Assembly (NCBI RefSeq): GCF_041320605.1
Contig: NZ_CP166679.1
Location: 1,178,001 to 1,242,000, forward strand
Length of the DNA stretch: 64,000 nucleotides
Direction of reading: 5' to 3'
Origin: Arenibacter antarcticus
GTDB lineage: Bacteria; Bacteroidota; Bacteroidia; Flavobacteriales; Flavobacteriaceae
This document shows, one piece after another, positions 23,868 to 60,313 of the stretch. Within the stretch, counting starts at the first letter, position 1; every line of letters begins with the position of its first letter. Made by a program: the position numbers and the translations under genes. A model generated the notes under the pieces. The model saw nothing but the letters and a program-made list of their open reading frames with translations, made no database searches and had not been told where the DNA came from.

Positions 23868-25199
23868 TTATTGCTTTGATTTTTCGGCCGCATCCTGCTG
23901 CCAAATAATACCATTTGGAAAACTGTAATCCTCCAAGGATTGCTCCTTCATGGTAATACTATATCCAGGCATGGAAGGAGGCATATAGGCCCCGTTCTTA
24001 ATCACCACTGGGTCGTAAAAATGCTCGTGCAAATGATCTACATACTCAATTATTCTATCCTCCATGGTTCCACTAATCGCAATAAAATCGATCATAGAAA
24101 GGTGCTGAACATATTCACATAATCCTACCCCACCTGCATGTGGACAAACAGGGATATTAAATTTAGCCGCCATTAAAAGGATGGCCAAAATTTCATTTAC
24201 GCCACCAACCCTACAACTATCAATTTGGCAGATACCAATGGCATCGGCCTGCATTAATTGCTTAAACATCACCCTGTTCTGGCAGTGCTCACCGGTAGCT
24301 ACTTTTATTGGGTGGACCGCCTTTGCTATTTTAGCGTGACCCAAAATATCATCGGGACTAGTAGGCTCTTCAATCCACCATGGCTCAAACTTCTTAAGTG
24401 CTGCCATATTGGTTATCGCCTCGTCCACATCCCATTTCTGATTGGCATCCATCATCAATTTTAGATCTGATCCAATTTCTTCCCGGATAATAGCTGCGCG
24501 TCGCATATCGTCTTGTAAATCAGAACCTACCTTAATTTTCATATGCTTAAATCCAGCTTCTTTTGCCTCCCTACAGAGGCGCCTCATCTTATCATCCGAG
24601 TAACCCAACCATCCAGCAGAAGTCGTATAGGCAGGATAACCATTTTTAAGCAAATAGTCTATTCTTTCCTGCTTCCCAGCCTCTTTTACCTTCAAAAGCT
24701 GCAGGGCCTCATCAGGTGTAATAGCATCTGTAATATACGTGAAATCGATACAGGACACCAACTCCTCTGGAGACATGTCCGCCAACAATTTCCATAGCGG
24801 TTTCTTTTCCATTTTAGCGTATAGATCCCAAACTGCATTTACAACGGCACCAGTGGCAAGATGGATCACCCCTTTCTCCGGGCCTAACCACCTCAACTGA
24901 CTGTCTCCGGTAATCATCTTCCAGAAAGCTCCCATGTTCTGGATAAAGCTTTCCATAGATTTTCCTTTCACCAAAGGAGCAAGGGAGTGGATCGCCGCTG
25001 CACAAAGTTCATTGCCCCTACCTATAGTAAAGGTAAGCCCATGACCTTCCAAACCGTCTGGATGGTCCGTTTTCAAAATAACATAGGCCGCGGAATAATC
25101 CGGATCAGGATTCATTGCATCCGAACCATCTAAGGATTTACTAGTAGGGAATCGGACATCTTTTACTAAAACATCCGTGATTATGGTTTTACTACTCAT
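23868..25199 (-). CDS. L-fuconate dehydratase (enolase superfamily)
   Basis: 443 residues from the ATG at 25199, the start at which similarity to fuconate dehydratases begins (TDVLVKDVRFPTSKSLDGSDAMNP). A longer in-frame extension upstream (20 residues, Cys-rich, overlapping the predicted promoter) is not credible. The catalytic elements are visible: Lys221-x-Lys223 in HMKIKVG, metal ligands Asp251 (MMDANQKW), Glu277 (WWIEEPT) and Glu304 (ATGEHCQ), and base His354 (CPHAGGVGL). It converts L-fuconate to 2-keto-3-deoxy-L-fuconate. It is first in the long minus-strand operon and is preceded by a TTG-N20-TAATTTTG promoter with a candidate AraC box. Confidence 0.92.
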   Translation of the reverse strand: MSSKTIITDVLVKDVRFPTSKSLDGSDAMNPDPDYSAAYVILKTDHPDGLEGHGLTFTIGRGNELCAAAIHSLAPLVKGKSMESFIQNMGAFWKMITGDSQLRWLGPEKGVIHLATGAVVNAVWDLYAKMEKKPLWKLLADMSPEELVSCIDFTYITDAITPDEALQLLKVKEAGKQERIDYLLKNGYPAYTTSAGWLGYSDDKMRRLCREAKEAGFKHMKIKVGSDLQDDMRRAAIIREEIGSDLKLMMDANQKWDVDEAITNMAALKKFEPWWIEEPTSPDDILGHAKIAKAVHPIKVATGEHCQNRVMFKQLMQADAIGICQIDSCRVGGVNEILAILLMAAKFNIPVCPHAGGVGLCEYVQHLSMIDFIAISGTMEDRIIEYVDHLHEHFYDPVVIKNGAYMPPSMPGYSITMKEQSLEDYSFPNGIIWQQDAAEKSKQ

Positions 25200-25219: not shown

Positions 25220-25285
25220 CAAAATTAAAACTAACCCTACAACATCTCAACCACCACAAGTCTCATTTCTGATACTTTTTTGACC
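25220..25285 (-). promoter_or_regulatory. Promoter of the fucose/fucan operon with candidate AraC-family box
   Basis: On the minus strand: box GGTCAAAAAAGTATC (25285-25271) followed by AGAAATG; the G of GTATC is 25 nt before TTG (25250-25248), which is 20 nt before the -7 element TAATTTTG (25227-25220, perfect TAnnTTTG). The ATG at 25199 would leave a leader of about 14 nt. The same spacing is found at 26247-26313 and 31817-31883. Confidence 0.7.
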
Positions 25286-25296
25286 TTTTTATAGTT

Positions 25297-26169
25297 CTAA
25301 TCCTGTTTTTGAGTATGAAGTTTAATATAAGCAGAAGGAGACATGCCCATTATTGATTTAAAATGTCGGTTAAAATTGGAAATATTATTAAATCCCGATT
25401 CATAACAGACCGGGGTAATATTATCCCTATTCTCTATCAACAATTTACAGGCATACCCAATTCTTATTTCATTAAGGTAGCTCGTAAATGTCTTCCTGTG
25501 AATCCTTTTAAAGAACCTGCTAAAGGCCGAGGGATTCATCTTGGCTATTTCCGCCACATCCTTAGAGCCTATGGGTTGATTAAAGTTTTTGAAAATAAAT
25601 TCATAGATTTCATCCAAATTCTTATTATCCGTTTTATTAAACGAATTTAAAAACCCCGGACTGGATAATAATTGGTATTCCTCATGAATGGCGAGTAGCT
25701 GAAGAATTTCTAAAAGCCTTATCGTCTTGTTAAACGGGTCCAAAGTGAGCAGGCCCCTAATCTTCGTGAGTACAGTAGTATCTATACCTACAAATTTAAT
25801 TCCCTGGCTTGCTCTTTTTATCAATTGGGAAATGGATTTCATTTCCATAGTCTTTAAAAAATCCATCCCTAAAAAATCTTCCTTAAAATGGATGGCGATC
25901 GCCTCGGAAGACAATTCGGAATGGTCTTCAAAATAAACTTCATCATTGAGCCACATATGAGGCAGATTTTCACCTAGAAGCACCAATTCACCCTCCTCAA
26001 ACTTCTCAATTCCATCCCCTATAAATCGGGTTCCCGTACTTTTTACAATATACACTAATTCCAATTCTGGATGATAATGCCACACTTTTAAAAAATAGGG
26101 AAAACTGTTTTGGGTAACAGTGAAGGAACTATTTTGCAAACTGGTCCTATCAAGTAAATGTAGTTTCAT
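25297..26169 (-). CDS. AraC-family transcriptional regulator with N-terminal cupin domain
   Basis: 290 residues. The N-terminal half is a cupin sensor (VWHYHPELELVYIVKSTGTRFIGD, GELVLLGENLPHMW), and the C-terminal about 100 residues form the two helix-turn-helix motifs of AraC/XylS proteins (SKDVAEIAKMNPSAFSRFFKR and VCYESGFNNISNFNRHFKSIMGMSPSAYI). Cytoplasmic, presumably sensing a sugar or catabolic intermediate. It stands between the fuconate dehydratase operon and the divergently oriented susCD operon, and three promoters around it share a common box, so it is the obvious candidate regulator of the locus. A weaker GGTCAAAA site lies upstream of its own gene (about 26229-26236 on the minus strand). 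Confidence 0.88.
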   Translation of the reverse strand: MKLHLLDRTSLQNSSFTVTQNSFPYFLKVWHYHPELELVYIVKSTGTRFIGDGIEKFEEGELVLLGENLPHMWLNDEVYFEDHSELSSEAIAIHFKEDFLGMDFLKTMEMKSISQLIKRASQGIKFVGIDTTVLTKIRGLLTLDPFNKTIRLLEILQLLAIHEEYQLLSSPGFLNSFNKTDNKNLDEIYEFIFKNFNQPIGSKDVAEIAKMNPSAFSRFFKRIHRKTFTSYLNEIRIGYACKLLIENRDNITPVCYESGFNNISNFNRHFKSIMGMSPSAYIKLHTQKQD

Positions 26170-26631
26170 AATATGGTATAGATAAACAACTAAAACAATC
26201 TATTTTAGACTATAAATATACTCACTTTTGACCAATTTTACGACTTGGGCAAAAAAAGTATCGTAAATTGCTTGTTATTTGGTTGACTCATAAATAAATA
26301 CCAAATATATTCGAATATTCCTTTTTTTACAGATAACTACTTACACATAAAGGATACAGTTATAATCACTAATTAATTCCAAAAATCGAAACTGTATAAG
26401 GGCTATTTAAAAATGCTCTAAAAGAATTAGTAAGCTCTTGGGTATAAGGTTATCTGAATTTACAAAGGAATCACAACTAACTAAACTAACTTAATAAAAA
26501 CACTTATGAAAATGTATTGAAAAAGAGAAACATCAAAGGATTCACTTTCACAAATAATCTATTATTATTGGCGAATTCGCAGTTTAAGAAAGTGATGTAA
26601 AAAATTAGCCAACTAACAAAACACCAAAAAC
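26170..26631 (+). other. Intergenic region between araC-type gene and susC: promoter plus long structured leader
   Basis: No credible ORF. It holds the susC promoter (26247-26313) and then about 310 nt of leader. Inverted repeats in the leader: ATACAGTT (26354-26361) with AACTGTAT (26390-26397), and TCACTTTC (26542-26549) with GAAAGTGA (26588-26595) enclosing the palindrome GCGAATTCGC (26571-26580). TTTACGA (26237-26243) and TCGTAAA (26261-26267) flank the A-tract box. Confidence 0.6.
26247..26313 (+). promoter_or_regulatory. Promoter of susCD with candidate AraC-family box
   Basis: Box GGGCAAAAAAAGTATC (26247-26262), then TTG at 26283-26285 (25 nt after the G of GTATC), 20-nt spacer, and TATATTCG at 26306-26313 (one mismatch to TAnnTTTG). 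Same geometry as the promoter at 25220-25285. Transcription would start near 26320, about 310 nt before the susC ATG. Confidence 0.65.
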
Positions 26632-29600
26632 ATGAAAAAATTAAACTCAGCGGAGCCTTTCCCCTCGGATTGGCCAAGCAAGTATCATTTAAAGATGAAA
26701 CTGACCGCCCTTTTGCTTGTAATTTCACTATTTAAAATTCAAGCTAATTCTTACGCAGAGACCACGAAACCAACATTAGACCTTATAAATGCTAGTGCTC
26801 TACAACATTCGGTTAGCGGAACAATTACGGATACTCACGGTAGTCCACTCCCCGGAGCAAACATCGTAGAAAAAGGATCCAGTAATGGGGTTACCTCTGA
26901 TTTTGACGGTAATTTTTCAATTAATGTTGCCAATGTAAATGCAACCCTTGTTATTTCTTACATTGGGTTTGCTTCTAAAGAAGTCCCCCTCAACGGACAA
27001 AACACTGTTGCCGTTAGCTTGGAAGAAAGCGCTTCCGGACTGGATGAGGTAGTGTTAATCGGTTACGGAACACAGAAAAAAAGTGACCTCACCGGCGCCG
27101 TGGGCTCCGTTAAGGCAGAAGAATTGGCAGAAAGACCGGCAGCCTCATTGAACCAGGCCATTGCCGGTAGGGTTTCCGGTGTGAACGTTACTTCTGGCTC
27201 GGGAAGACCTGGGGGTAGAACAGCCGTACGGATCCGTGGAAATACATCGGTAAGCATCGCCAATACACCACTTTACGTAATTGACGGTGTAATACTGAGT
27301 GCCGCCAGCCTACCCAATGGCAGTACTCCGATAGATTACATGAACCCCAATGATATCGAATCTATTGAAGTTTTAAAAGATGCTTCCGCGACAGCCATAT
27401 ACGGTGCAAGAGGCGCCAATGGGGTAATTCTGGTGAGCACCAAAAAAGGCACCACTACTGGTCGCACCAATATTAGTTATGATGTAGATTTCAGCTTAGG
27501 GACATTACCAAAGAAACTTGATTTATTGAATTCAGAAGAGTTTCTGCGTGTTGAGGAAATCGCATATGCCAATGCTGAAAAGTACGACCCCGATGGGTGG
27601 GCAGGTGGAAGATATACCGACCCTAGATTAAAGAGAACGGATCCTAGACTTTTTGACACCAACGGCAACCCACTTTATGATACCGATTGGCAGGATGAAG
27701 CAATTAGGGACGCTTTTATCCAAAATCACCAACTTTCTTTTACTGGTGGTAATGAAAACTCCAATTTCGGACTATTTATGGGTTTCAGGGATGAAGAGGG
27801 ACTAATCATAGAATCATGGCTGAAACGCTATTCTGGTAGATTTACATTAGATACCGATGTTACCGACTGGTTAAAGATTGGAGGAAGTTTAAGCTATAAC
27901 GACCAAAACGAAAAGCAAGTAGACCAACTTGGTGGCGGTGGTATCACTACAATGCGCCAAGTTTATGAAGCCCTACCGATTATACCGGTCCGTTATGAAG
28001 ACGGCAGTTGGGGATCCAACATACACTATCCAGGGATGGAAGGAGGCGGCAGCCCTGTGGCGGTAGCAAATGATCGCAGATATTTCCTAAAGACCCAGAC
28101 TGTTCTAGGGAATTTCTATAGCAATATTAAATTCAATGAAAACCTTCAATTAAGAACTACTCTAGGCGCCAATATCCTTAATCAAAGAAATGATTATTAC
28201 GGAGGTAAGGACCTAAGATATATAGCTATGCCCGATGGAGCCGCATATGTAGACAACGCTCGTTATAACTCATGGCAGTTTGAAAACTATTTGACCTATA
28301 CCAAAGATTTTGATCGTGACAATTCATTATCGGCCATGTTAGGCCTTTCTTGGCAACATATAGATGAGTTTAGCGCAAGGGCATCCACCCGTGGGTTTGC
28401 CGATGACTTTTACGGTTTTAACAACCTCGGGGCAGGGTCCAACCCACAGGCGCCGTCTTCCAGTAAAATCGCTTACGGGCTAAACTCTTATTTTGGGCGT
28501 GTCAACTATAACTACAAGAACAAATACTTGTTCACTCTTACAGGTAGAGCTGACGGATCTTCAAAATTTGGACCAGAAAATCAATTTGCATTTTTCCCTT
28601 CGGCGGCATTGGCATGGAGGGTATCAGAAGAGGATTTTTTACAAGAAGCTTCTGCTATTTCCAATCTAAAGCTTAGAGCAAGTTACGGTACAACAGGCAA
28701 CTCTGAAATACCAGCTTACAGAGCATTGGCCGGCTTGTCCAATGGCACGGTGATTTTTGATGGCGCTCGTTCTCCCTATACCGTCCCAGGACGTATGGCC
28801 AATCCGGATTTAAAATGGGAAAAAACGGACCAGGTAGATGCCGGTCTTGAAATAGCCCTATTCAATAATCGTATTGGGTTAGAAATTGATGTATATAGAA
28901 AGTTGACCACCGATATGCTCTTAAATGCCCCCGTACCCTCTTCAAGTGGCTTTACCAATGTATTTAGAAACGTGGGAAGTATGGAAAACAAGGGTATTGA
29001 AGTTAATTTGAATACTACCAATATAGATAATGAAATTTTTGGCTGGAACAGCAACTTCAATATTTCAATTAATAAAAATAAAGTAGTTGAGCTTTCAGGA
29101 GGCTCCGATATATTCTTGGGGTCAACATTGATCCGTGTTGGTGAACCTGTCGGTACTTTCTTCGGATATATCGATGAGGGCACATGGAACACCGATGAGG
29201 CAGCCCAGGCAGCAATCTATGACAGGTTGCCCGGCGACATCAAATACCGCGACCTCAACAATGATGGGGCCATCAATAGCGATGATAGGGCAATCATCGG
29301 AAAAGGTATAGCCGACGGTTTCGGAACCTTTTCAAATACCTTCAGATATGGCAATCTAGAGCTACTGGTTGACCTGCAGTTTCAATATGGCAATAGTGTG
29401 ATGTACCGAGACGAACATTCTTCTGAAGACCGTCAAACAATTGCCAATAGTTTCAAGACTGTTTTAAATGCGTGGACTCCTGAAAATCAGGATACCCATA
29501 TTGCCCAGATAAGACCTATTGCTGCCGGATATGACACTAATAACGATTCAGGAAAATTAAAGGATGCTTCATTTCTAAGAGGAAGAAATTTGATGCTATC

Positions 29601-29808
29601 CTATGTTTTTAAACCTGAATTGGTCCAGCGTTTGCACTTGAATCGCATAAGAGTATATACTTCAGTTCAGAACTTTTTTGTAGCAACGAATTATCCAGGG
29701 TATGACCCTGAAAGTTCGAATGGTGGTGGGGCTTTCGACCAAGGATTCTCCCTTTACGATTATCCGAGACCCCGTACCTTTATGCTAGGATTAAATGTTG
29801 GACTATAA
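26632..29808 (+). CDS. SusC/RagA-family TonB-linked outer-membrane transporter
   Basis: 1058 residues. The start gives an N-terminus of the type MKKLNSAEPF...KMKLTALLLVISLF seen in many flavobacterial SusC proteins; a shorter start at the internal Met22 (26695) is possible. After the signal peptide (about residue 42) comes a carboxypeptidase-D-regulatory-like domain (about 58-132: VSGTITDTHGSPLPGANI), a TonB-box region LDEVVLIGYG, the plug domain (about 150-265, with IRGNTS and YVIDGVI) and a 22-strand barrel ending in FMLGLNVGL. No STN domain, so not an anti-sigma-coupled type. With the adjacent SusD it should import fucan oligosaccharides across the outer membrane. Confidence 0.93.
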   Translation: MKKLNSAEPFPSDWPSKYHLKMKLTALLLVISLFKIQANSYAETTKPTLDLINASALQHSVSGTITDTHGSPLPGANIVEKGSSNGVTSDFDGNFSINVANVNATLVISYIGFASKEVPLNGQNTVAVSLEESASGLDEVVLIGYGTQKKSDLTGAVGSVKAEELAERPAASLNQAIAGRVSGVNVTSGSGRPGGRTAVRIRGNTSVSIANTPLYVIDGVILSAASLPNGSTPIDYMNPNDIESIEVLKDASATAIYGARGANGVILVSTKKGTTTGRTNISYDVDFSLGTLPKKLDLLNSEEFLRVEEIAYANAEKYDPDGWAGGRYTDPRLKRTDPRLFDTNGNPLYDTDWQDEAIRDAFIQNHQLSFTGGNENSNFGLFMGFRDEEGLIIESWLKRYSGRFTLDTDVTDWLKIGGSLSYNDQNEKQVDQLGGGGITTMRQVYEALPIIPVRYEDGSWGSNIHYPGMEGGGSPVAVANDRRYFLKTQTVLGNFYSNIKFNENLQLRTTLGANILNQRNDYYGGKDLRYIAMPDGAAYVDNARYNSWQFENYLTYTKDFDRDNSLSAMLGLSWQHIDEFSARASTRGFADDFYGFNNLGAGSNPQAPSSSKIAYGLNSYFGRVNYNYKNKYLFTLTGRADGSSKFGPENQFAFFPSAALAWRVSEEDFLQEASAISNLKLRASYGTTGNSEIPAYRALAGLSNGTVIFDGARSPYTVPGRMANPDLKWEKTDQVDAGLEIALFNNRIGLEIDVYRKLTTDMLLNAPVPSSSGFTNVFRNVGSMENKGIEVNLNTTNIDNEIFGWNSNFNISINKNKVVELSGGSDIFLGSTLIRVGEPVGTFFGYIDEGTWNTDEAAQAAIYDRLPGDIKYRDLNNDGAINSDDRAIIGKGIADGFGTFSNTFRYGNLELLVDLQFQYGNSVMYRDEHSSEDRQTIANSFKTVLNAWTPENQDTHIAQIRPIAAGYDTNNDSGKLKDASFLRGRNLMLSYVFKPELVQRLHLNRIRVYTSVQNFFVATNYPGYDPESSNGGGAFDQGFSLYDYPRPRTFMLGLNVGL

Positions 29809-29827
29809 CCATATAAAAGATAAAAAA

Positions 29828-31336
29828 ATGAATATCTATAGAAACTTTATAAGAACTATAGCCGTAGTAACCGCATTATCATGCATAACGGCATGTAGTG
29901 ATTTTTTAGATGAAGAGGATGCGTCTAACTTCACTACCGACACCTACTTCACAACGGCTGAACATGCCAAGAGCGCTGTAAATGGGATATACCAACCTTT
30001 GATTTCAATTACCGAAAGTGGATTTGGTGGAGGCCCATGGTTAATGTTGGAATTTGCCACAGGCTTGGCCAATACCTCCTTAGGGCAGGCTACGAATATA
30101 TACTTGGTTAAAGATTTAATTAACAATTCAGACAATGGATATGGCAACAGTTTCTGGACCGGCTATTACTCAGGAATCTCTAGGGCCAACTTGGCAATTG
30201 AAAAAATCCCTGAAATTAATATGGACGAGACAGTGAAGCAAAAATATTTGGCTGAAGCTAAATTCCTTAGAGCTTACTATTATTTTGGCTTGGTACGCAT
30301 GTTCGGAAACATTCCTATCATTACCAATTCGGTCGATTTGGGCTCGGAGCAATTATACCCTCAACAATCTTCCCCTGAGGCAGTCTATGATTTAATCGTT
30401 AGCGATCTTAAAGAAGCAGAGAACGCCGGTCTACCTTGGAAAAATGAATCAGGAAGAGTTTCAATGGGAGCAATTAAAACGCTATTGGCAGATGTATATT
30501 TGACCATGGCAGGCCACCCACTCCAAAAGACTGAGAATTTTGCGCTTGCAGCCGCCAAGGCTAAAGAGGTAATCGATTCAGGAGAATTTAGGCTTTTTGA
30601 CACCTATGATGAACTACATGACCCTGCTACTAAAAATACAGGAGAATACATCTTCATGACCCAATATGCGGCGAATATTCAATCAGGTAACTGGCAGCCA
30701 GCAATATTGCCATATAACCTAGGAATATCAGCCTATTCGTCTCAAACTGGCGGCATATTTGCAACAAATGAGTTTGCAAGCTCCTACGAGGTGGGTGACA
30801 AACGTGCTGAAGAAAAGCAATTCTATTTTACAAGCTATTCCTTAGAGGCTGATAGAAACAACAGTATAAATCTAGGAGCACCGTATATCTATAAGCTTTT
30901 TGATATTGAAGCGAATGAAGCGAGCGCCCAGTCCGACTTGAATTGGAGCATCTACAGATATGCCGATGTATTACTGATGTACGCGGAAGCGCAAAACGAA
31001 GCTGAAGGAGCGCCTTCAACAGATGCATATAGTGCAGTTAATCTAATTAGGCAACGTGCTGAAATTAACGATTTGGCTGGTCTCTCACAAGGCGACTTTA
31101 GGACTGCAGTACGAATTGAGCAAGTTCATGAGTTAAGTTTTGAAAACCAGACATGGTACGACATGGTTAGGTGGAGAAAGGCGTATGACCCTGAAGCCAA
31201 TACATTGGAAGAATTTGTGGGCCATAATTTTTCATACTTAACAAATAAAGCGCTTTCAGATAGGGAACTTTTGTTTCCGATACCAACATCTGAAATGCAG
31301 AACAACCCTAATCTAGCACAAAACACAGGATACTAA
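29828..31336 (+). CDS. SusD/RagB-family glycan-binding lipoprotein
   Basis: 502 residues from the ATG at 29828, which gives a clean lipoprotein signal ending in LSCITAC. The longer frame start at 29795 overlaps the susC end and lacks a signal. Typical SusD features: CSDFLDEEDAS then TYFTTAEHAKSAVNGIYQPL, tetratricopeptide-like helices with AEAKFLRAYYYFGLVRMFGNIP, and the C-terminal RYADVLLMYAEAQNEA and FENQTWYDMVRWRKAY motifs. It forms the surface lid of the SusC channel and binds the oligosaccharide. The start lies 19 bp after the SusC stop, and a strong hairpin terminator follows at 31387-31436. Confidence 0.93.
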   Translation: MNIYRNFIRTIAVVTALSCITACSDFLDEEDASNFTTDTYFTTAEHAKSAVNGIYQPLISITESGFGGGPWLMLEFATGLANTSLGQATNIYLVKDLINNSDNGYGNSFWTGYYSGISRANLAIEKIPEINMDETVKQKYLAEAKFLRAYYYFGLVRMFGNIPIITNSVDLGSEQLYPQQSSPEAVYDLIVSDLKEAENAGLPWKNESGRVSMGAIKTLLADVYLTMAGHPLQKTENFALAAAKAKEVIDSGEFRLFDTYDELHDPATKNTGEYIFMTQYAANIQSGNWQPAILPYNLGISAYSSQTGGIFATNEFASSYEVGDKRAEEKQFYFTSYSLEADRNNSINLGAPYIYKLFDIEANEASAQSDLNWSIYRYADVLLMYAEAQNEAEGAPSTDAYSAVNLIRQRAEINDLAGLSQGDFRTAVRIEQVHELSFENQTWYDMVRWRKAYDPEANTLEEFVGHNFSYLTNKALSDRELLFPIPTSEMQNNPNLAQNTGY

Positions 31337-31386
31337 TTTCGATAGTGACACATAATACTATTAGGCATACATAAGAGCCTTACAAC

Positions 31387-31436
31387 TTGGCAGGACATGG
31401 ATAAAGTATTGTAATACCCATGTCCTTGCCAATTTG
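31387..31436 (+). terminator. Terminator hairpin after susD
   Basis: Left arm TTGGCAGGACATGG (31387-31400) pairs with CCATGTCCTTGCCAA (31418-31432, one bulged T); an inner GTATT-GT-AATAC stem extends the hairpin. Followed by TTTGTT. It lies 50 nt after the susD stop. Confidence 0.75.
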
Positions 31437-31674
31437 TTCTATTCATTATCCGTAAAAAGCTCATTGGATAACAATATTAAAATATACCTCATTAATTCAC
31501 AGTTCCGTTTTTTAATGAAATTATAATTCGATTCCTTATAAGCAAAATAAATAGTACCATTAACACTTGGATAGGTAATTCAGGTCAAATTCTTCACCTA
31601 TTTATAGCTAAGATTAGTGAAAAATAATTGGCGCGGATAAAGGCGTCAAATGTTAATTGAGTTAGTTTTAGAGA

Positions 31675-31708
31675 ATCTGGAACCTAAAAGGTGTCCAGAT
31701 TTTTTTTT
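31675..31708 (+). terminator. Intrinsic terminator with no coding gene directly upstream
   Basis: ATCTGG (31675-31680) pairs with CCAGAT (31695-31700), extended by ACC/GGT across a bulge, followed by a run of nine T (31700-31708). The previous ORF ended 340 nt earlier and has its own hairpin, so this one either insulates the next promoter or ends a small RNA. Confidence 0.75.
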
Positions 31709-31816
31709 ACCACTAATTGTATTTCCAGTTTTATTTCAAGTGATTATAAGCCTTGGTTCCGAATACACGGTTTCCCGTAATCAAATCACCTCATAAAATT
31801 AAGAACACCCGAAAAA

Positions 31817-31883
31817 GAGCAAAAAAAATATTGAACATAGTTTTCGTATTAGTTGCTCTATTCTTGCAGGTTAGGTATATTGG
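31817..31883 (+). promoter_or_regulatory. Promoter of the GH95-like gene with weaker AraC-type box
   Basis: Box-like GAGCAAAAAAAATATT (31817-31832); TTG at 31853-31855 is exactly 25 nt after the pentamer start, and TATATTGG (31876-31883, one mismatch to TAnnTTTG) follows a 20-nt spacer. The geometry equals that of the other two promoters, although the box itself is less well conserved. Confidence 0.55.
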
Positions 31884-31976: not shown

Positions 31977-34274
31977 ATGAACTATAAAATAATATTCCCG
32001 CTCCTATGCATATGCTTACTTGTAAGTTGCAAGAAGGACATTACAAATACGGAACTGGACCGTATTCCAAAGTATGAACTTAAATTCAACGAATTAGCCT
32101 CCTCTTGGGACGAAGCCATCCCCTTAGGAAATGCCACAGTAGGTGCGCTTATATGGGAGAAAAATGGAAAGCTGCGCTTTTCCCTAGACAGGGCAGACTT
32201 ATGGGACCTACGCCCTATGGAAAATTTAAATTTTAAGGAGTACGGGTTCGATTGGGTAGAACAACAATGGGAAAATGATACCTATAAAAATGTACAGGAT
32301 CGCTATGACCTACCTTATGACCAATTACCAGCACCTTCCAAAATTCCTGGTGGCGCCTTGGAATTTGACATAAGCGGACTTGGGGAGGTAGATTACGTAA
32401 AATTAAATGTTGCTACGGCAGTATGCGAAATTAAATGGAAAAATGGGGCTACTCTTAAAACCTTTGTACACGCTACGGAGCCTGTTGGCTGGTATTCTTT
32501 TGAAAACGTAAACAGCGACCTAAATCCCACTATCATCCCCCCTCCATACGTATCCCTACAACAAGCGGGAAATGAAGATCCTGTAGCGGGACAAGACCTC
32601 CGAAGATTAGATTATGATGGAGGAAGGGTCACTCAAAAGGAGAATACCATTACCTATGACCAGCAGGGATGGGAAGACTTTAGATTTCAAGTGCACACCC
32701 AATGGGAGCCCACTCCTACCCATTTAAAGGGCAGTTGGAGTATCAGCTCAAAAAATTCGGCATCGGATACAGCTAAGACTGCCCAACAAGTTGTTGCCAA
32801 TAGCCTTAAATCTGGAATATCTACTGCTTTGGAAAGTCACACAAATTGGTGGCATAACTTCTGGAATCAATCTACGGTTAGCGTACCAGATCCCATTTTA
32901 CAGCACCAATGGTATATGGAAATGTACAAATTTGGCTCGGCGGCACGACAAGGAGCACCCCCAATTTCCCTGCAAAGTGTGTGGACGGCAGACAATGGGA
33001 AATTACCACCTTGGAAGGGCGATTTTCATCACGATCTAAACACCCAATTAAGTTATTGGCCCGCTTATTCAGGGAACCACCTTGCCTTAGAACAGGGGTT
33101 TATAGATTGGATGAGTACCTACAAATCAACGTTTAAGAAATACACCAAAGATTATTACGGCACCAACGGTCTAAACGTTCCAGGAGTGACCACCTTAACT
33201 GGAGACCCTATGGGTGGCTGGATACAATACTCCTTTGGACCAACAGTTGGAGCCTGGTTGGGACAACACTTTTACTTGCACTGGCGTTATTCTATGGACA
33301 GGGAATTTCTTAAGAACGAAGCCTATCCTTGGATCAAGGACGTAGCCCTCCATTTTGATGAATTGTCGGAAATGGACGAAAATGGCAAGCGAAAACTTCC
33401 GATGAGCTCTAGTCCAGAAATCCATAACAACGCTCACAATGCTTGGTTTGCCGATATCACCAATTTTGACCTTTCCCTAATAAGGTGGACCTATTCCCAT
33501 GCCGCTGAATTGGCCATGGAATTAGGTTTAAAGGAAGAGGCCGATAAATGGAATGCTACCTTAAAAGAATGGCCAGAGTATGCCATTGATGAAAATGGGT
33601 TAATGGTATCTCCAAGCCTTCCGTATAACGAATCGCACCGACATTTTTCTCATCTTATGGCCATTCATCCCCTTGGACTTTTAGATGTTTCCCATGGAGA
33701 AGAAGAAAAACAGATTATACAAAAGACTATTGCCAATTTGGACGAAATAGGTTCTGGACAATGGGTAGGCTATTCTTTTAGTTGGTTGGGCAATTTAAAA
33801 GCACGGGCCCTAGATGGTAAAGGAGCCGCAAAAGCATTAAAAGATTTTGCCACTTCTTTTGTTCTGCCCAATAGTTTCCATGTAAACGGGGATCAATCGG
33901 GAACCGGGAAATCAGATTTAACGTATAGGCCATTTACCTTGGAAGGTAATTTTGCCTTTGCATCTGGGTTACAGGAAATGCTAATACAAAGCCATACTGG
34001 AACCATAAAAATATTTCCAGCCATACCTAAGGATTGGGAGAATGTGGAATTTAGCCAATTACGAACAGAGGGAGCCTTCTTGATATCGGCTCAAAAGAAA
34101 TCTGGGGAAGTAAAATGGGTAAAGATAATCTCTGAGAAAGGCGGAGAATTAAGACTAAAAAATCCGTTTAACAAAAAGGATATTTTCATTGATGAGGGTA
34201 TCAACATTAAAGGGGTTGGTGAGACCATAGCTATTGAGACCCATCCAGGACAAGAAATATGGCTTAGACCATAG
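31977..34274 (+). CDS. GH95-like (alpha,alpha)6-barrel lipoprotein with altered catalytic residues
   Basis: 765 residues with lipobox LLVSC (Cys18). The fold follows GH95: SSWDEAIPLGNATVGALIW at the N-terminus, DFHHDLNTQLSYWPAYSGNH in the barrel, SSSPEIHNN, HRHFSHLMAIHPLG and the beta-domain end. Compared with the canonical enzyme at 7990-10353, the Asn-x-Asn pair is Asp353-x-Asn355, the acid Glu481 is kept, and the general base Asp is replaced by Glu656 (FTLEGNFAFAS). It may be a GH95-clan enzyme with another substrate (for example another alpha-L-sugar or a sulfated fucoside) or a weakly active homologue. It has its own promoter and is probably co-regulated with susCD. Confidence 0.75.
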   Translation: MNYKIIFPLLCICLLVSCKKDITNTELDRIPKYELKFNELASSWDEAIPLGNATVGALIWEKNGKLRFSLDRADLWDLRPMENLNFKEYGFDWVEQQWENDTYKNVQDRYDLPYDQLPAPSKIPGGALEFDISGLGEVDYVKLNVATAVCEIKWKNGATLKTFVHATEPVGWYSFENVNSDLNPTIIPPPYVSLQQAGNEDPVAGQDLRRLDYDGGRVTQKENTITYDQQGWEDFRFQVHTQWEPTPTHLKGSWSISSKNSASDTAKTAQQVVANSLKSGISTALESHTNWWHNFWNQSTVSVPDPILQHQWYMEMYKFGSAARQGAPPISLQSVWTADNGKLPPWKGDFHHDLNTQLSYWPAYSGNHLALEQGFIDWMSTYKSTFKKYTKDYYGTNGLNVPGVTTLTGDPMGGWIQYSFGPTVGAWLGQHFYLHWRYSMDREFLKNEAYPWIKDVALHFDELSEMDENGKRKLPMSSSPEIHNNAHNAWFADITNFDLSLIRWTYSHAAELAMELGLKEEADKWNATLKEWPEYAIDENGLMVSPSLPYNESHRHFSHLMAIHPLGLLDVSHGEEEKQIIQKTIANLDEIGSGQWVGYSFSWLGNLKARALDGKGAAKALKDFATSFVLPNSFHVNGDQSGTGKSDLTYRPFTLEGNFAFASGLQEMLIQSHTGTIKIFPAIPKDWENVEFSQLRTEGAFLISAQKKSGEVKWVKIISEKGGELRLKNPFNKKDIFIDEGINIKGVGETIAIETHPGQEIWLRP

Positions 34275-60071: not shown

Positions 60072-60248
60072 TTAAAGTAGGTGCCGGAATTAGGATTATA
60101 AATACTTTTTGTGGTCGATTATCCAAAGCGTTCAAGGTGCCATAAGAATTAAAATATTTAAAATCTCGGGGTTTTGCTTGTTTGGAACTACGTCCTCACG
60201 TGACCCCTTAGGCCTCTTTTCTATAATTCATCCAAACCCAACATCAAA

Positions 60249-60280
60249 AAAAAATACCTGAGTGTCCCCAGGTATTTTTT
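60249..60280. terminator. Bidirectional terminator between upp and the SusD_2-type gene
   Basis: AAAAAATACCTG (60249-60260) pairs with CAGGTATTTTTT (60269-60280) around an 8-nt loop. A-run on the left and T-run on the right allow termination from both strands. It lies between the convergent stops at 60071 and 60314. Confidence 0.85.
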
Positions 60281-60313
60281 AAACTAACTAACTCAAATAA
60301 AATAAACTTATCG

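Follow-up and report, generated by a model that had tools for sequence, protein, structure and literature searches.

Three copies of a rigid promoter element in an Arenibacter polysaccharide locus are very probably the operators of the AraC-family activator encoded by the same locus, and they lie over the -33 position of fucose-catabolism promoters. This assignment draws on the anatomy of the sites, their conservation, their specificity within the genome, and their co-occurrence with the AraC gene; from these we infer binding by the AraC protein, activation of transcription, and a fucose-type inducer. The window analyzed is a 64-kb stretch of one 4.69-Mb Arenibacter contig; 17 congeners and over 60 named relatives were used for comparison. 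Site 1 is on the minus strand and consists of an upstream half GGTCAAAAAAGTATC (25271-25285, at about -70 to -56) that is kept in 17 of 17 congeners, a downstream half GAGACTTGTGGTGGTTG (25248-25264) that overlaps the -33 position, and the -7 element TAATTTTG (25220-25227). Sites 2 and 3 are on the plus strand. Site 2 has the upstream half GGCAAAAAAAGTATC (26248-26262; E = 2.3e-9 in the whole-genome scan), a downstream half with TTTGGTTG at its end (26269-26285), and the -7 element TATATTCG of the susC promoter (26306-26313). Site 3 has the weakest upstream half, AGCAAAAAAAATATT (31818-31832; E = 1.1e-3), which is unrecognizable in the closest relative (G001), a downstream half AGTTTTCGTATTAGTTG (31839-31855), and the -7 element TATATTGG of the GH95-like gene promoter (31876-31883), which is conserved in G001. 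An earlier sequence-only reading placed the first base of a pentamer 25 nt before a TTG, followed by 20 nt and then TAATTTTG, TATATTCG, or TATATTGG; these spacings are exact in all three sites, and the coordinates and strands of that reading are correct.

The first gene behind site 1 encodes an enolase-superfamily sugar-acid dehydratase (23868-25199, minus strand) that is taken as a fuconate dehydratase by context and scores below the NCBIfam cut-offs of the named dehydratases. Its start codon (25199) is ~20 nt past the -7 element, a distance that is the same in relatives. Behind the dehydratase, co-directional genes with gaps of at most ~200 nt extend over 1926-23827 (minus strand) and encode SDRs, two GH29 enzymes, a beta-helix protein, three sulfatases, an FAH hydrolase, a GH95 enzyme, an esterase, and an MFS permease. 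These genes are likely transcribed with or downstream of site 1, probably as one transcript. Site 2 precedes susC and susD (26632-31336, plus strand), and site 3 precedes the GH95-like gene (31977-34274, plus strand). The GH29, GH95, sulfatase, and pathway-enzyme families point to fucose or fucan as the substrate.

The literal pattern of the box occurs three times in the window and was absent from 300 first-order Markov randomizations, and a looser form (box, 25 nt, TTG) also has three matches against 0.07 expected. TTG-N20-TAnnTTnG by itself is common, with nine matches in the window where 4.4 are expected; therefore, what makes the sites significant is the box at its constant distance. Scans for plain sigma-70 promoters and for terminators gave chance levels only. 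The abundance of TTG-N20-TAnnTTnG, together with the AT-richness of Bacteroidota promoters, is what would be seen if the box were a general feature of strong flavobacterial promoters, made up of an A-tract, a -33 element, and a -7 element, and not a specific operator. The makeup of the element argues against this explanation, since conservation of GGC...GTATC and of GGTnG equals that of the -7 box and these promoters lack the -33 TTTG.

Alignment of the sites defines the unit as one rigid element of ~38 bp, GGCAAAAAAAGTATC-N6-tGGT-N9-GGTnG, followed by exactly 20 nt and then TAnnTTTG. With the -7 box set as -12 to -5 (PMC9723704), the upstream half is at about -70 to -56 and the downstream half tGGT-N9-GGTnG is at about -49 to -33. 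The A-tract, which had been described as 6 or 7 nt long, is not variable in length; GGTCAAAAAAGTATC in site 1 and GGCAAAAAAAGTATC in site 2 are equally long, and they differ by a C/A substitution within a 15-mer of constant length. Nor does the -33 TTG of the earlier description represent a conserved promoter hexamer. All that persists is TnG, with which the second half closes, and TTG itself is found in 1 of 48 sites from other genera, where the -33 position reads GGTAG, GGTGG, AGTAG, or AGTGG in 43 of 48 sites and mostly only TnG is shared. An independent -33 TTTG element of the Bacteroidota sigma-A promoter is therefore not part of these promoters, as judged from the same 48 sites. The -7 element is retained, with TA in 47 and TAnnTTTG in 32 of the 48. 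TAnnTTTG is the Bacteroidota -7 consensus (PMC9723704); TAATTTTG of site 1 matches it, and TATATTCG of site 2 and TATATTGG of site 3 are near matches. The 20 nt to TAnnTTTG are constant, the aligned sites are gapless, and the second half-site overlaps the -33 position. The suggestion that an AraC box sits just upstream of a -33 element is thereby refined, as the second half-site overlaps the -33 position and there is no intact -33 element behind it. The first conserved bases of the two half-sites (GC and GT) are exactly 21 bp apart, which is two helical turns. A true direct repeat of two half-sites is suggested by this period; overall similarity of the two halves at 21 bp is 34% identity, the best of several modest neighboring shifts.

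A 70-column matrix was built iteratively from non-Arenibacter loci only (81 sites), so the window contributed nothing to it. The seed pattern was suggested by the box in the window, and the upstream half of the matrix is not wholly independent for this reason; the downstream half and the -7 columns are independent. The consensus is taaGGCAAAAAAAGTATcA.taTtgGT..ttTtTttGGTAG..N20..TA.TTTTG. The best three matrix matches in the window coincide with the three sites and score 41.5, 28.0, and 27.0 bits; the next match scores 7.6 bits, and the best score in 60 randomized 64-kb sequences was 9.2 bits. Conservation of the box in orthologous loci, which had been proposed as a check, was confirmed by a site of >20 bits in 77 of the 80 Flavobacteriaceae loci around AraC orthologues, and randomized loci (0.8 Mb) contained no site above the threshold. 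Sites near AraC orthologues are positioned within 150 nt behind the AraC stop codon (58 sites) or divergently within 250 nt before its start (34 sites).

In the congeners, the box flanks the AraC gene on both sides. The dehydratase promoter is directly behind the stop codon, for example GGTCAAAAAAGTATC...GTGGTGG...TAGTTTTG. The divergent box before the AraC start belongs to an ECF sigma promoter in most congeners and to the susC promoter in this genome and in G010. The ECF sigma gene of most congeners occupies the place where this genome has susC directly (L042 9934, L043 10636, and others), and its promoter carries the box. Across genera, the genes behind the box vary while the box is constant; they encode the dehydratase, a Zn-dependent dehydrogenase, a sugar-acid kinase-like protein, an FMN lactate oxidase, LutA-like and UxaA-like proteins, an amidohydrolase, an SDR, GH29, SusC, and ECF sigma factors, several of these names being assigned by reading N-termini. 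Orthologous sites in L111, L116, L117, L122, and L133, which come from Cellulophaga, Flavobacterium, and other genera, carry GGAAG in place of GGTAG in their second half and precede lactate-oxidase or sigma genes. Covariation of this variant with residues of the recognition helices was looked for, and none was found in the helices.

Two gapless sequence models were used to scan the whole genome. R1 was made from 48 sites of other genera, and R2 added the sites of the congeners, with none from this genome. R1 ranked the susC site first (E = 1.5e-7), a site at 632571-632639 (minus strand) second, and the GH95-like site third, and the dehydratase site, which is of the GGTC type, was within noise. 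Over the 4.69 Mb, R2 returned the susC site (E = 2.3e-9), the 632571 site (2.5e-8), the dehydratase site (4.7e-7), and the GH95-like site (1.1e-3), and no other full-length match was above noise. All four adjoin fucose or fucan genes. Random matches in unrelated intergenic DNA, raised earlier as a possible objection, are essentially absent, with these four being the only full-length R2 sites above noise genome-wide. A fifth match upstream of glmS (1885129) is partial, without a proper second half or -7 box, and was treated as chance. The prominence of just four full-length sites in 4.69 Mb is not expected of a general promoter feature, and of the 120 relatives that lack the AraC gene, 119 have no site at E = 1e-4; that explanation is considered extremely improbable, and the operator reading is retained.

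The fourth site is 571 kb away from the home locus and is upstream of a susC-susD-GH95 operon. The layout at this box is divergent, as at the home locus. A short degenerate stretch resembling the AraC N terminus (24 residues, E = 0.03) was observed beside the distant box (L169:10140-10305, ~632.6 kb). The distant locus may be a duplicate that has kept the operator after loss of its own regulator.

The proposed binding protein is encoded between sites 1 and 2 (25297-26169, minus strand) and has a predicted cupin-like N-terminal domain and two helix-turn-helix motifs. The C-terminal domain matches HTH_18 (E = 2.4e-20) and HTH_AraC (E = 2.8e-11). The predicted structure (mean pLDDT 82) consists of beta strands in residues 16-95 that form a beta-barrel, helices in residues 102-161, and the helices of the helix-turn-helix domain in residues 183-289. 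Structural matches of the C-terminal part are AraC-type DNA-binding domains, with a TM score of 0.88 to 3oou over the DNA-binding domain, and those of the N-terminal part are the RhaR regulatory domain (5u93, TM 0.66), cupins, and AraC (2arc). RhaR is the L-rhamnose sensor, and L-rhamnose and L-fucose are both 6-deoxyhexoses. The protein has both features of the AraC/XylS family, a C-terminal domain with two helix-turn-helix motifs and, by prediction, an N-terminal cupin domain for sensing and dimerization. The recognition helices MNxSAFSR and NNISNFNR are nearly invariant in 81 orthologues (56-100% identity) and differ in the three closest paralogues of the same genome. Two species have two adjacent copies of the AraC gene that are 75-76% (L025/L037, G008:C30) and 74% (G012:C23) identical to the one in the window.

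Presence of the box follows presence of this AraC gene. Among 149 relatives, an AraC orthologue is present in 29, an R1 site (E = 1e-4) in 29, and both in 28 (Fisher p = 5e-28, a value that ignores kinship, the relatives not being statistically independent). Stated as frequencies, the box is found in 28 of the 29 relatives that have the AraC gene versus 1 of the 120 that do not. The co-occurrence is partly built in for the non-Arenibacter genomes, as loci around AraC orthologues in some of them went into the training of R1; the Arenibacter genomes and the genomes without the AraC gene are independent of the R1 training set. The one genome that R1 scored as AraC-only (G035) has a 41.6-bit site by the matrix, and the box-only match in G143 is partial and has a matrix score below zero. 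The relative G054 has the dehydratase without this AraC, and there is no box before its dehydratase. The small number of genome matches, the box in 77 of the 80 orthologous loci, and the tracking of the AraC gene across the 149 genomes support the proposal that these promoters form a regulon of the local AraC protein.

The box could instead be the operator of a different regulator that travels with the locus, such as a hybrid two-component system, a LacI- or GntR-type protein, or another AraC paralogue. AraC paralogues do have look-alike boxes, and other regulators are encoded near the sites of some relatives, as in L121, where a weak site is followed by a LacI gene. The 39% paralogue L002 (~3293 kb) has related boxes, GACAAAATAGTACTG and GGCAAAAAAGTGTCA, on both sides (16.4 and 15.6 bits) with a different second half. 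Both the second halves of the paralogue boxes and the recognition helices of the paralogues differ from those of the present pair, the box tracks this AraC gene across genera, mostly shortly behind its stop codon, and it is absent from G054, which alone among the relatives has the dehydratase and lacks this AraC. These points make a different regulator improbable, and the protein encoded at 25297-26169 is preferred as the binder. Another paralogue, L004 (~1820 kb), has a perfect 8-bp repeat GTCAATAT with an exact 21-bp period before a -7-like box TACATTTA, suggesting that AraC paralogues may use the same architecture with other half-sites.

Site 3 was described from the outset as the weaker copy, and it has the lowest genome score (E = 1.1e-3), yet it scores 27 bits versus a maximum of 9.2 in randomized windows. 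The operator reading would be compatible with function being confined to site 1, site 2, and the distant site, and site 3 being decayed or a chance match. Besides its score, two observations in the congeners bear on this version. At the same place before the GH95-like gene, G001 keeps the -33/-7 part and the upstream half is unrecognizable, and the third box of the congeners lies before a candidate non-coding unit instead. Site 3 nevertheless stands well above the randomized maximum, and both half-sites and both spacings fit exactly. Decay of site 3 is accordingly regarded as possible but the less probable outcome, and site 3 is retained as a probable operator.

The stronger box of G001 and most other congeners is located behind susD, before a unit without an open reading frame. 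The order of this unit is the box, the -7 element TATCTTGC, a variable and poorly conserved stretch, an invariant TTGAGTTAG, and an intrinsic terminator. Box-driven units of this type are found at L042:17572-17830 (plus strand), L043:2893-3151 (minus strand), L047:17392-17650 (plus strand), and 12 more Arenibacter loci. The terminator shows compensatory changes, including those of the copy in the window. The window has a relict counterpart at 31538-31708 (plus strand) with a degenerate box (7.6 bits), TTGAGTTAG at 31657-31665, and an intrinsic terminator at ~31675-31708; the box at 31538 is within chance by its score alone and is meaningful only as the counterpart of the congener site. We tentatively suggest, as a possibility with the odds against it, that the AraC operator in Arenibacter also drives a conserved non-coding RNA gene behind susD, such that the activator might turn on the transporter operon together with a small RNA. 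This RNA would belong to a multicopy family that is also located directly behind other susD genes and could be a flavobacterial counterpart of the Bacteroides FopS RNAs. Rfam gave no match in the window at gathering thresholds, and the congener loci gave one match, far below its gathering score. Pairing of the TTGAGTTAG unit with susC leaders was considered and set aside as too weak, the complementary AACTAAC being present in 4 of 29 susC leaders versus 1 of 76 other leaders.

Two further features were seen around sus genes of this genome. TTGAGTTAG followed by a terminator is present immediately behind other susD genes as well. TTGAGTTAGT with an intrinsic terminator occurs within ~25 nt behind other susD stop codons (window 60247-60296, minus strand; L234 ~1501; L238 ~1501), and a reversed control pattern of TTGAGTTAGT plus terminator had no match. 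Several susC leaders (L242, L243, and L254) have a hairpin shortly before the start codon, for example CGGGGAATGTACGACCATTCCCCG and similar forms.

In the proposed mechanism, the AraC N-terminal domain would sense an inducer from the fucose pathway, and the protein would bind the 38-bp element and contact RNA polymerase at a promoter without a -33 element of its own. The promoters lack the standard -33 TTTG and have the end of the second half-site there instead; therefore, the main sigma factor would receive the missing contact from the bound activator. The targets turned on would be the dehydratase with the long catabolic and glycosidase gene set, susCD, probably the GH95-like gene, and the distant susCD-GH95 operon. 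The position of the second half-site over -49 to -33 also allows the opposite sign of control, in which the AraC protein mainly represses by keeping the -33 region blocked as long as no inducer releases it, as protein bound there could block polymerase too. The missing consensus -33 element is expected of activator-dependent promoters, MtlR of Pseudomonas fluorescens has a related architecture and activates (PMC4514859), and deletion of the carrageenan AraC regulator CgrA of Zobellia cut growth on carrageenan (PMC5698469). Repression as the main mode is highly unlikely on these grounds, and activation is preferred.

The arrangement yields a testable rule in which the 38-bp element, 20 nt, and TAnnTTTG predict regulated genes in whole genomes and allow distant operons to be assigned to fucose use with no need of expression data. 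It would mean that the -33 element of the unusual Bacteroidota promoter can give way to an activator site set at a constant distance. Related AraC paralogues, with motifs of their own, may follow the same rule, and marine Flavobacteriaceae commonly have AraC-type regulators at their polysaccharide loci. A search of the open-access literature found no description of a motif or operator for this regulator. The regulon and operator are considered new and of a kind that is already known.

Escherichia coli AraC binds araI1-araI2 at pBAD as two half-sites in the same orientation, 21 bp apart, with the second overlapping the -35 element, and activates a promoter with a poor -35; the protein combines a cupin sensor with two helix-turn-helix motifs. 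The Arenibacter system is alike in the suggested tandem arrangement of the halves with a 21-bp offset, the placement of the second half over the core element, the poor -33, and a protein with a predicted cupin and two helix-turn-helix motifs. It differs in having a -33/-7 Bacteroidota promoter read by another sigma factor and a different half-site sequence, and no distant looping site was identified. The candidate small RNA can be compared with the FopS small RNAs of Bacteroides thetaiotaomicron, which are linked to susC-type operons (PMC11697453). Both are linked to such operons and their sequences differ; for the candidate Arenibacter RNA, the susC-leader pairing test was weak and supported no target.

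Regulation of the same pathway has been predicted for FucR regulons of microbial-mat bacteria, which contain oxidative L-fucose/L-fuconate pathway genes in fuc loci that include one of the Bacteroidetes member Algoriphagus (PMC5507952). The likeness is one of pathway, as predicted control of oxidative L-fucose/L-fuconate genes, with the FucR family and motif lying outside the comparison (PMC5507952). CgrA (ZGAL_3159) of Zobellia galactanivorans is an AraC regulator of carrageenan use with a positive role established by a deletion mutant (PMC5698469). It shares with the Arenibacter protein the AraC family, a seaweed-polysaccharide locus, and the bacterial family; the substrate is another one, and the portion of the CgrA report at hand gives no operator (PMC5698469). 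The mannitol promoter of P. fluorescens has a matching layout: the footprinted MtlR site is 37 bp or longer, and its two 15-bp blocks, the first of them next to a poly-A tract, cover -72 to -58 and -50 to -36 (PMC4514859). Phylum, sugar, and sequence are different, and the MtlR site was footprinted whereas the present one is deduced from DNA sequence. The two-block layout with an A-tract is common to both, with the Arenibacter blocks at about -70 to -56 and -49 to -33 (PMC4514859).
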